NCBI GenBank assembly: GCA_035606695.1
Contig: DATNEW010000043.1
Span: 62,001-126,000 of the forward strand
DNA: 64,000 nt
From: Gemmatimonadaceae bacterium
GTDB lineage: Bacteria; Gemmatimonadota; Gemmatimonadetes; Gemmatimonadales; Gemmatimonadaceae
Direction of reading: 5' to 3'
In this document: piece by piece, positions 41,351 to 44,351 of the stretch
How the letters are laid out: the number at the start of each line of letters is the position of its first letter
Numbering within the stretch: position 1 is the stretch's first letter
Notes under the pieces: generated by a model
What the model was told of the DNA's origin: nothing
The model's database searches: none
The model's input: the letters and a program-made list of their open reading frames with translations, nothing else
Position numbers and translations under genes: made by a program

Positions 41351-42139
41351 ATGAGTCGCGTCATCACACTGCTCACCGACTTTGGAACCGTCGACGGCTA
41401 CGTCGGCGAGATGAAGGGCATTCTCCTGTCGAGCGGTGCAGACATCGAGATCGTGGACATCACGCACGACGTTCCGCCGCAGGACGTGGAGCGCGCGCGG
41501 CTCACGCTGGCGCGCGTCTGGCGGCGTTTCCCGGCGGGGACGATCCACATCGTCGTCGTCGATCCGGGCGTCGGTTCGGCGCGACGCGGGCTGGCGATCG
41601 CCAGCGATGAGCATTTTCTAATAGGGCCGGACAACGGCGTGTTGTCGCCGGCGCTCGTCGTTCACGGAGCACGCGTGATCGAGCTGCCCGTGCCGCCGTC
41701 GGCCTCCTTCACGTTCCACGGGCGGGACGTCTTCGCTCCCGCGGCGGCCGCGATCGCGCTCGGCGAGTCCATCGACGAGTTTGGACGGGTGGTCGATGAT
41801 CCCATCATTCATCGCACGCCCGAACCGCGCCGAATCGCGGATGGCGCGATCGAAGGGCAGGTGATCGTGGTGGACCGGTTTGGGAACGGGATCACGAATC
41901 TGATCACGTTGAAGGGTGGGATGGTGACCGTGAATGGACGTGCGATTCCCGTTCGCCACACATACGCTGAGGTGGCGCCAGGTCAACCGGTCGCGGTCGT
42001 TGGATCCACCGGGTTCATCGAAGTCGCTGTTCGGGATGGAAGCGCTGCCGAATCGCTTGGCATTGTACGAGGGACGAAGGTCATTTTGACCACGGACAAC
42101 CATCCGACGTCCACGGACAGGCACGGAGACAGCGGATGA
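41351..42139 (+). CDS. S-adenosylmethionine hydrolase (DUF62, adenosyl-forming)
   Basis: ATG at 41351 gives 262 residues, starting MSRVITLLTDFGTVDGYVGEMKG, the DUF62 pattern with the substrate aspartates. HIVVVDPGVGSARRG and GPDNGVLSP complete the SAM pocket; the fluorinase-specific 23-residue loop is absent, so it is a SAM hydrolase rather than halogenase. The C-terminal domain includes IVVDRFGNGITNL. The last 16-17 codons, from about DNHPTSTD, lie inside the inverted-repeat element at 42090 and look added from it. Product is adenosine plus methionine. Confidence 0.9.
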   Translation: MSRVITLLTDFGTVDGYVGEMKGILLSSGADIEIVDITHDVPPQDVERARLTLARVWRRFPAGTIHIVVVDPGVGSARRGLAIASDEHFLIGPDNGVLSPALVVHGARVIELPVPPSASFTFHGRDVFAPAAAAIALGESIDEFGRVVDDPIIHRTPEPRRIADGAIEGQVIVVDRFGNGITNLITLKGGMVTVNGRAIPVRHTYAEVAPGQPVAVVGSTGFIEVAVRDGSAAESLGIVRGTKVILTTDNHPTSTDRHGDSG

Positions 42140-42300
42140 ACGGCGTTTGCCGTTGAAAAAAAACTTCTTTAGAAAACCATCATTAAGCTTCACGAATGCA
42201 AGCATCCTGAGGGAATTCCTAAGAGAGCCTTTCAACGGCAGTTAACCGCAGTTCACGCCGTCTCCGTGCCTGTCGGCAGTGGTCCGACGTTCGTCCGTGG
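42090..42300. mobile_element. 211-bp inverted-repeat element (family D, MITE-like) with AT-rich core
   Basis: The ends CCACGGAC (42090) and GTCCGTGG (to 42300) begin long imperfect terminal inverted repeats of about 70 bases; the most exact blocks are GACAGGCACGGAGAC and TGCCGTTGAAA on the left, met by their reverse complements on the right. The core (about 42157-42225) is AT-rich (AAAAAAAACTTCTTTAG...) against a GC-rich background. No ORF. It ends the SAM hydrolase frame and abuts the convergent YihY gene, so could serve as a terminator. A MITE is inferred from structure only. Confidence 0.7.
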
Positions 42301-42307
42301 TATGCTG

Positions 42308-43192
42308 TTACGTGACAATCCGCCCGAGATACACAGCTCCCTTGTCCGGATCGATCGCCCCGGTTCCGTGGTGGAGCTCGGACGCGAGCTCGCCGCCCAG
42401 CAGCACCACGAACATCGTGTAGTACATCCACGTCAACAGAATGATCACGCCGCCGATCAATCCGTACGCCGCGTTCGGCGGGAAGTGATTCACGTACAAC
42501 CGAAAGAGCAGCGTCGCCACCACCCACAACACGGTCGTCGTAATCGCCGCCACGAGCAGCTGTCCCGTGTGCTGGCGCACGTTCGGCAATAAGTAGTACG
42601 TCATGAACGCCAGGCCCGTGACGCCGACGAACGCGAGCGGGAATTGGAGCACCTTCCACGTCCACAGAAATACCGGGCCGAGTCGCATGGCGCCGCCAAT
42701 CCAGTTCGCGACGGATTCGCCGTCGAGAAAGACGACGGTCGAAATGGCGACGATCACACCACCAGCCACGAAGGCCGCGAGCCGTATGAGCTGCTGGCGA
42801 ATCCACGAACGTGTTTCGCGCACGTCGTACGCCGTGTTCAACGCGCCCATGAGCGTGCCGAAGATGTTCGAGCCCGACCACGCCGCCAGCAGCAAGCCGA
42901 CCGACATCAAGCCGGGCGCATTCGACGCGAAGACCACGCGCTCGAGAATCTTGCGCACCGCGTCGATCTGGTCGGGCGGAAGCACCGAGACGAGCTCACC
43001 CATCAGCCAGCCGACCATCTGCTGCTTGTTCCCGGCGAGGCTCAGAAGCGGCGCCAGGAAGAGCAGCAGCGGGAAGAGCGAGAAGAAAAAGTTGTATGCG
43101 GCTGACGCGGCGAGCGTCGTGACGTTGTCGTCGCCGACTTCGCGCGCCGTTTTCTTCAGCAACGGGCCAAGGCGATATCCCCAGAGCGTCAT
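42308..43192 (-). CDS. YihY/RNase BN-like inner-membrane protein
   Basis: ATG at 43192 gives 294 residues; the longer frame to 43498 lies in the next gene. YihY family features: an amphipathic start, DDNVTTLAASAAYNFFFSLFPLLLFLAPL as helix 1, and about six helices in all, with AWSGSNIFGTLMGALNTAYD and IILLTWMYYTMFVVLLGGELASELH in the last helices. YihY proteins are integral membrane proteins of unclear role; the old RNase BN name is not supported. It is the last gene of the sigma/anti-sigma strand. Confidence 0.88.
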   Translation of the reverse strand: MTLWGYRLGPLLKKTAREVGDDNVTTLAASAAYNFFFSLFPLLLFLAPLLSLAGNKQQMVGWLMGELVSVLPPDQIDAVRKILERVVFASNAPGLMSVGLLLAAWSGSNIFGTLMGALNTAYDVRETRSWIRQQLIRLAAFVAGGVIVAISTVVFLDGESVANWIGGAMRLGPVFLWTWKVLQFPLAFVGVTGLAFMTYYLLPNVRQHTGQLLVAAITTTVLWVVATLLFRLYVNHFPPNAAYGLIGGVIILLTWMYYTMFVVLLGGELASELHHGTGAIDPDKGAVYLGRIVT

Positions 43193-43262
43193 AGGCAACG
43201 GGACGGGCAAGGGATATTCCGCCGTGCGGTCCCTTGCCGTCTCGCTATGTGCCGCGGACTGA

Positions 43263-44351
43263 CTATCTGCTGCTGGCGACCCGCCGCGTCGACGCCGCGA
43301 CACCAGTGACCGGCGTCGGCGTCTGCCAGGCAAACTCGTCGGTCGACGACTTCGCCGATCCCGCGCCGGGGCGGACGGTGCCGCCGCGCGAGGTGATCGT
43401 GGCGCCGAGACCAACGGTCGCCGCGACCCACGTGACCGCGATCGCGATTGGGCGAAGAATCCCCGACACCACCGGATTCCACGCAAACGCCGCGGCAATC
43501 AGCCACACGGCGCAGTATGCGACGAGACCGATGAACAACGCGCGAAGATGCACGCCGCGTGGTGAGGTCGTTCCGCGATCCGACGCAAACGCTCCGCCCG
43601 TGAGTCGAGCGACGGCGAGAAATCCGAGCGTCACGAGCCCCGCGGCGGCGATCACGTATGCCACGATCGCGAACGGAATCAACAGACCGCCGATCACCGT
43701 GATCGCCAGAGCGACGACCAGCACGAGCAATCCCGGAAGCGCGAGGAGCTGCCCCAGGACGCCAATCCAGAAGGCGCGTCCGAATCCACGTTCGAGTGCG
43801 ATCACCACGCCGTCGAGGTTCGCTTCGGCGAAGATCATCACGCCGAGTCCGATGATGATCAGCACCGCGAACCAGCCGATGGTCAGTTTCACCGAACCCA
43901 AGGTGCCGAGCGGTGGACTCGCTGGCGCCGGCAGCGCGGGCGTGGCGTTGATCGCGCGCTTCTGACCGTCGATCACGCCGCCGTCGATGATCACTCGGCC
44001 ATCAGCCGCCCACGCATCGCCGATGACGCGGGCGCCGCGATGCACGTGGATGTCGCCGTCCAGTACGGCGACGTCGCCGTTGACCGTGCCATAGACGTCG
44101 AGGTTTCCGCGGGCAACGGCGATTGGTCCGTCGACGCTGGTGCCTGCCTTGATGACGCGATCGCCAAACGTGAAGTGATCGGCGTCGGGAAGATGCGTGT
44201 CGCCGGCGGCGCGCTGCCTGGCGATCTCGTTCGACAACGCGGCCGTGTCGGCCGGGGCAGCAGGGGGAGTGGCCTGCGCTGGAGCAGGAGCCTGCGCCGG
44301 AGCCCGAAGACTACCGAGCGCCAGTGCGGCGAAGGCGAGCAGGGCGCGCAT
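43263..44351 (-). CDS. Exported bactofilin-like protein with C-terminal membrane domain
   Basis: A 362-residue protein: signal peptide (MRALLAFAALALGS...), an Ala/Pro linker, then a beta-helix block (about 58-132) of bactofilin-like turns (TFGDRVIKAGTSVDGPIAVARGNLDVYGTVNGDVAVLDGD... pattern), then about six hydrophobic helices from residue 155. This is the membrane-anchored polymer-forming type rather than a plain cytoplasmic bactofilin. It sits 2 bases after the anti-sigma gene and may be that system's envelope-facing effector. Function is inferred from fold only. Confidence 0.8.
   Translation of the reverse strand: MRALLAFAALALGSLRAPAQAPAPAQATPPAAPADTAALSNEIARQRAAGDTHLPDADHFTFGDRVIKAGTSVDGPIAVARGNLDVYGTVNGDVAVLDGDIHVHRGARVIGDAWAADGRVIIDGGVIDGQKRAINATPALPAPASPPLGTLGSVKLTIGWFAVLIIIGLGVMIFAEANLDGVVIALERGFGRAFWIGVLGQLLALPGLLVLVVALAITVIGGLLIPFAIVAYVIAAAGLVTLGFLAVARLTGGAFASDRGTTSPRGVHLRALFIGLVAYCAVWLIAAAFAWNPVVSGILRPIAIAVTWVAATVGLGATITSRGGTVRPGAGSAKSSTDEFAWQTPTPVTGVAASTRRVASSR

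Follow-up and report, generated by a model that had tools for sequence, protein, structure and literature searches.

A 213-bp inverted-repeat element was identified in the window (the whole 64,000-nucleotide stretch of Gemmatimonadaceae DNA analysed here), and it is probably an ORF-less, MITE-like hairpin that has been spread in trans by a GxxExxY protein recognising its iterated arms. From sequence comparison, we interpret the element as derived from a compact (~0.5 kb) GxxExxY element and lacking the ORF, and its arms are common to another copy in the same genome, on contig C29, that encloses a GxxExxY gene. More tentatively, and with slightly more doubt than belief, it is proposed that GxxExxY genes and their cognate arms may make up a class of mobile elements of ~0.5 kb that occurs across prokaryotes and has gone unrecognised. 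In such elements one protein of PD-(D/E)XK fold would recognise its own iterated arms and spread both itself and ORF-less hairpins.

To our knowledge, environmental genomes often contain long inverted hairpins built from repeated short words, for which a mobiliser has generally not been named. Pairing such hairpins with one small protein family across phyla provides a mobiliser that is directly testable, and offers a role for the GxxExxY family, which is of unknown function and has several copies per genome. If the pan-prokaryotic class is real, it would explain many orphan CACAGAG-word hairpin repeats of environmental bacteria; S23p/IVP genes with arms of 7-nt words would then be a parallel class, and 23S intervening sequences a special case. 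Inserts of the window type also show how protein ends are rewritten at convergent junctions.

The element and its site in the window

The window comes from contig C43; the genome measures 5.9 Mb and is in 50 contigs. An earlier note on this DNA had placed an inverted-repeat element of 211 bp at 42090-42300. Homology to other copies bore this out and set the limits 1 bp wider on each side, at 42089-42301 (213 bp), with ACCACGG starting at 42089 and CCGTGGT closing at 42301. The features of the site are listed below.

41351..42139, + strand: SAM hydrolase (SAM_HAT_N, SAM_HAT_C), 262 aa
42089..42301, no strand assigned: ORF-less inverted-repeat (MITE-like) element, 213 bp, recognised by homology to about 55 copies
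42089..42134, + strand: left arm, outer 46 nt, with iterated CGGA words ~10-11 nt apart, terminating in GGCACGGAGACAGCG
42089..42136, + strand: last 16 codons of the SAM hydrolase, a C-terminal tail encoded by the element and not shared by any of 18 aligned homologues
42170..42221, no strand assigned: AT-flanked core hairpin, a degenerate version of the GAAMACCCTCRGGANGCTTCG hairpin of most standard copies
42256..42301, - strand: right arm, outer 46 nt, 78% complementary to the left arm, with GGCACGGAGACGGCG on the - strand
42302..42310, no strand assigned: ATGCTGTTA, outside the right arm, resembling sequence outside other copies and holding the YihY/BrkB stop (42308-42310, - strand)
42308..43498, - strand: YihY/BrkB ORF, true start probably near 43201, ending in GRIVT

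When inner pairing is counted, the arms reach about 65-70 nt with an AT-rich core between them, in rough agreement with the terminal inverted repeats of about 70 bases and the AT-rich core claimed earlier. A folding energy of -97.3 kcal/mol was obtained for the element strand, where shuffled versions averaged -62.1 (z -7.5; 0/200 shuffles). The match to the GAAMACCCTCRGGANGCTTCG-type core is at C43:104201-104218, that is, at 42201-42218 of the window. Beyond the overlapping gene ends the element holds no complete ORF, as is also the case for the standard copies of 205-223 bp, and an Rfam search yielded no credible family, its one sub-threshold match (mir-360) lying outside the element.

Exactly 16 codons of the SAM hydrolase CDS (42089-42136) and its stop lie within the element, where about 16 had been estimated. 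The tail that they encode, TTDNHPTSTDRHGDSG, was present in 0/18 aligned SAM hydrolase homologues from relatives, all of which end before it. The proposal that the element had changed a protein end thus withstood the comparison with homologues, and the C-terminus of the SAM hydrolase is supplied by the element. Behind the SAM hydrolase gene of G022, a genome of another genus, there is a different inverted repeat (GGACCACTGCGGA...), which has weak relatives elsewhere in G022.

The convergent YihY/BrkB gene has its stop codon outside the element, starting 7 bp from it. The protein ends in GRIVT*, while three same-genus orthologues run 13-14 residues further and a fourth, from another genus, likewise extends past this point; the 13-14 terminal residues missing here are conserved. 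In two same-genus relatives (G001 and G002) the same convergent junction is without the element and has a short plain spacer, in keeping with the earlier idea that the element had landed at a convergent junction. The element-free junctions and the longer YihY orthologues together mean that the native spacer and the YihY end were lost. The insertion would so have been accompanied by this loss, with both protein ends rewritten, and the shortened YihY suggests that target DNA was replaced at insertion.

Copies of the element in the genome

A blastn search with the window element returned 91 matches in its own genome and, at the same setting, none in 19 relatives. The arm word GGCACGGAGACGGCG, allowing at most one mismatch, had 112 genome hits against 1 for the reversed control, and the MITE-like reading of a multi-copy, ORF-less inverted-repeat element was supported by both counts. 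The arms are common to all of the about 55 dispersed copies, and the core to most of them. Paired copies could be measured in 48 cases, and further copies were located at C13:24436, C28:112439, C4:13115, C1:201856, C26:139841 and C35:135017.

Three size classes were distinguished, including standard copies of ~215 bp with one central hairpin (GAAMACCCTCRGGANGCTTCG...), larger copies of ~285 bp with two core hairpins in tandem within one arm pair (C9:157220, C9:166941 and C27:168877), and mini copies, which consist of arms only and measure 51-64 bp from arm word to arm word. Almost every core hairpin in the genome is located inside arms of this family. The copies are 25-30% diverged and mostly old. 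Diverged arms (e.g. CGCGGAAAGGCGCGGAGACGGCG) are also carried by the same-genus genomes G001 and G005, the latter with a similar core as well. At C38:409-561 the usual core of a copy is swapped for a different inverted sequence of the ATCCCGAGCG type.

It had been suggested that the element be sought elsewhere together with target-site duplications. The other copies were found, but among the 43 copies scanned no direct repeat of 2-9 bp was enriched at any offset up to 5 bp, and no other insertion scar was detected in them. Simple insertion with a target-site duplication was rejected on this absence of signal, and it is possible that duplications have decayed in old copies. Because no duplication was found, the label 'MITE' fits by analogy and falls short of the full definition. 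Over their outer 46 nt the two arms of one copy fit each other better than they fit arms from other copies (0/5000), and the inner 30 nt show no such within-copy excess; stem pairing as the sole constraint was rejected on this confinement to the outer 46 nt.

GxxExxY genes of this genome

The wide copy on C29 (82832-83348 between arm words; ~600 bp) encloses a single gene, whose product is assigned by HMM to the GxxExxY family (TIGR04256, E 9e-29; PDDEXK_3, PF13366, E 1e-28) and keeps an intact D...ExK motif. Its left arm gave a median score of 69 against the 48 ORF-less copies, with a shuffled maximum of 22. The ORF (L090:1999-2466) has a candidate start, an ATG, at the outer extremity of the left arm; read from there, its opening residues, MTTDKSGTATDRHGDGG, are encoded by the arm, in the frame that also gives the SAM hydrolase tail. 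Such copies are rare, C29 being the only ORF-bearing one seen of the window arm family, and this partner with the same ends encodes a GxxExxY protein, not a known transposase. Since the C29 copy is without the CCTCGGGA core, a simple deletion within it would not yield the standard copy.

Three further GxxExxY genes of the genome were assigned by HMM. Around the second gene, at C40:32123, the arms are different (ACGACAACATCCGACAAGATCCGACC); they recur in an ORF-less hairpin at C9:94915, together with the CCTCGGGA core. This second arm family, comprising the gene (C40:31200-33600) and the hairpin (C9:94600-95300), is built of ATCTGACAAA-type words. Directly downstream of the third gene, at C40:19700, lies a 59-nt, 93% complementary inverted repeat of ACGCGGAC words (L308:1595-1787).

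GxxExxY genes between inverted arms across phyla

In this genome and its relatives, 30 GxxExxY loci were compared, of which 12 had a best upstream/downstream inverted match of at least 50, the maximum at 57 control positions being 41; nearly half of the loci are without clear arms. A scan of named genomes recovered 80 GxxExxY loci from many phyla, including archaea. In this cross-phylum sample, which represents the GPGLLESVY-type subfamily and not that of the C29 gene (a narrower alignment having replaced a first one that was too diverse), inverted arms scoring at least 35 flank 53 of the 72 genes with enough flank, against 1/389 controls from the same loci. At a score of at least 40, arms were found at 42 loci and at 0 controls. 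The arm-flanked genes are spread over about a dozen phyla.

The arms are composed of iterated words (ACCACAGAGGCACAGAGG, ACGCGGAAAACGCGGA etc.), and for most of them the best lag is 8-10 nt; the words of the window-family arms are spaced 10-11 nt apart. The median length of the GxxExxY elements is 521 bp, and the gaps between matched domain and arm are ~25 bp. Protein similarity is correlated with arm similarity (Mantel r 0.30, 0/2000 permutations), for which GC is not the explanation, though shared descent alone could also yield the correlation. In the type strain Hymenobacter daecheongensis DSM 21074 (L221) a GxxExxY gene stands between two identical 52-nt inverted arms; judged by its sequence, this locus is the strongest candidate of this study for an element that is recent and may be active. 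Similar words also occur in G401, an acidobacterial genome that has a GxxExxY gene, as about nine close inverted pairs that leave no room for an ORF.

The GxxExxY protein is predicted to have a PD-(D/E)XK nuclease fold. Residues D64, E74 and K76 are invariant in 77 sequences, and the AlphaFold2 model of one arm-flanked protein (pLDDT 95.5) was matched to SSO0001 with Z 9.8 over 99 residues (rmsd 3.8), and to Hjc and BglII with Z 7.3 and 7.2, respectively, values below 8 being merely suggestive of function. A PDB sequence search for relatives returned none at E up to 1.

Four-helix-bundle 23S_rRNA_IVP genes (PF05635) were taken as a rival cargo. In this genome and its relatives, 24/29 of these genes have inverted iterated arms (score at least 33), against 4/54 controls, and the arms have a 7-nt period (autocorrelation 0.59 at lag 7 and 0.52 at lag 14). 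Arm style tracks the protein family, which favours recognition of its own arms by the encoded protein. Nuclease activity as the driver of spread is weakened, because a family that is not a known nuclease shares the layout, and the nuclease fold may perhaps not be what drives it.

Genomic context and proposed mechanism

The orientation of neighbouring genes was counted in the ~247 kb of loci covered by the analysis, with an in-house codon-model gene caller. Convergent genes flank 21 of 47 copies, tandem genes 24 and divergent genes 2, compared with 11, 57 and 19, respectively, of 87 background spacers of at least 30 bp (Fisher test, convergent enrichment p 8e-5, divergent depletion p 0.006). 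The copies favour gene 3' ends, with copy ends typically a few to 30 bp from stop codons, and their outer flanks are T-rich in the outward direction (TTTT in 19/82, AAAA in 6/82).

In the mechanism that we propose, the GxxExxY protein would be a nuclease that recognises its own arms, by their iterated words or by the cruciform, and promotes copying or insertion of the hairpin, and ORF-less copies would be moved in trans. Surviving insertions would mostly be those placed immediately after a stop codon, and especially those between convergent genes, at which a long hairpin whose flanks are T-rich in the outward direction may be tolerated or may act as a shared bidirectional terminator. The new SAM hydrolase tail would be a by-product of the position of the first in-frame stop. 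Given the observed association of genes with arms, we infer binding, cutting, insertion and movement by the nuclease, and the weakest step of the reading is the one in which the nuclease itself would be the mover.

Alternative explanations

The enrichment between convergent genes and near-absence between divergent ones, together with the very stable folds, would also suit a resident REP/BIME-type hairpin that selection keeps at convergent gene ends to terminate transcription in both directions or to stabilise mRNA 3' ends, its mobility being long past or irrelevant. This explanation, which is compatible with the proposed mechanism, appears rather unlikely. It gains from the better within-copy pairing of the outer 46 nt and from the minis, in most of which the stem is preceded by an A-run and followed by a T-run, as in long-stem bidirectional intrinsic terminators. 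In standard copies, however, the T-run is left and the A-run right of the core stem, where they pair together and are on the wrong sides, and the inner core as a canonical bidirectional terminator of these copies was rejected on that ground; outside its arms the window copy has T-rich bits only. The low frequency of TTTT in the outer flanks and the absence of a pairing excess in the inner 30 nt also speak against it, where copies damage gene ends (SAM hydrolase, YihY) they resemble insertions, and the enclosed GxxExxY gene is left unexplained.

An RNA-level hairpin comparable to the intervening sequences of 23S rRNA, in which RNase III would cut the stem out of transcripts and so make insertions harmless, and in which GxxExxY and four-helix-bundle proteins would be hairpin-binding passengers or helpers and not DNA mobilisers, is quite unlikely. 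RNase III excises the Coxiella intervening sequence, which has an S23p ORF and a terminal stem of 28 bp (PMC4990558), and the S23p/IVP genes studied here share the layout of a single gene within inverted arms. Against this stand the location of the copies, which lie between genes, on either strand and not in rRNA, and the arms, which track a protein of DNA-nuclease fold and whose helical-turn-like spacing of 8-10 nt suggests DNA recognition. The reading as a classical MITE, mobilised in trans by a transposase of DDE or HUH type (of an insertion sequence or RAYT) that is unrelated to GxxExxY, with the C29 gene as a chance passenger, is very improbable despite the MITE-like size, arms, copy number and intergenic location. 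A target-site duplication is absent, the only gene seen between the arms is GxxExxY, and the pairing recurs across phyla. A profile search of the genome with PF01797 (RAYT, Y1/HUH transposase) gave no match, while control genomes do match, and RAYT was rejected as the mobiliser.

Relation to known elements

The window element is like bacterial MITEs of the RUP, Correia/NEMIS and ERIC type in being short, ORF-less, multi-copy and intergenic, with inverted repeats and a strong hairpin. It differs in having neither a target-site duplication nor a transposase partner that could be found, in its long arms of iterated words, and in an ORF-bearing relative that encodes a protein of predicted PD-(D/E)XK fold. 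Repeats and TIRs around RAYT genes were described by Di Nocera et al., and TIR-flanked RAYTs were termed 'TIRtrons' (PMC3733652). The likeness to these and to REP/BIME systems lies in small hairpins found genome-wide at gene 3' ends and in a gene flanked by the same repeats as the likely mobiliser, but here there is no RAYT, the flanked gene is GxxExxY and not an HUH transposase, and no GTAG or CGTC tag was noticed as a defining end.

For the GxxExxY family, to which the C29 gene and the three others belong, flanking inverted iterated arms appear to be undescribed in the literature searched. That search, of literature outside subscription journals, preprints and database notes, found no description of GxxExxY genes with such arms, nothing on TIGR04256, PDDEXK_3 or the word CACAGAGACACAGAG, and nothing pertinent on MITEs in Gemmatimonadetes; the term GxxExxY itself turned up in two papers, which by their titles deal with an algal virus genome and a survey of reverse transcriptases, and earlier notice of these elements elsewhere is possible.

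The nearest described case is the Coxiella intervening sequence. Intervening sequences of 23S rRNA with an S23p ORF are alike in their size of ~0.4-0.6 kb, in long-stem terminal inverted repeats, in one small ORF and in the occurrence of forms that lack an intact ORF. The GxxExxY elements differ in being intergenic, in their GxxExxY gene and in their words of 8-10 nt, the local S23p/IVP arms having 7-nt words, and the window element itself lies between two protein-coding genes and not in a 23S rRNA gene. Among the 23S_rRNA_IVP loci L266-L295, examples with arms of 7-nt words are L277, L283, L284 and L291.
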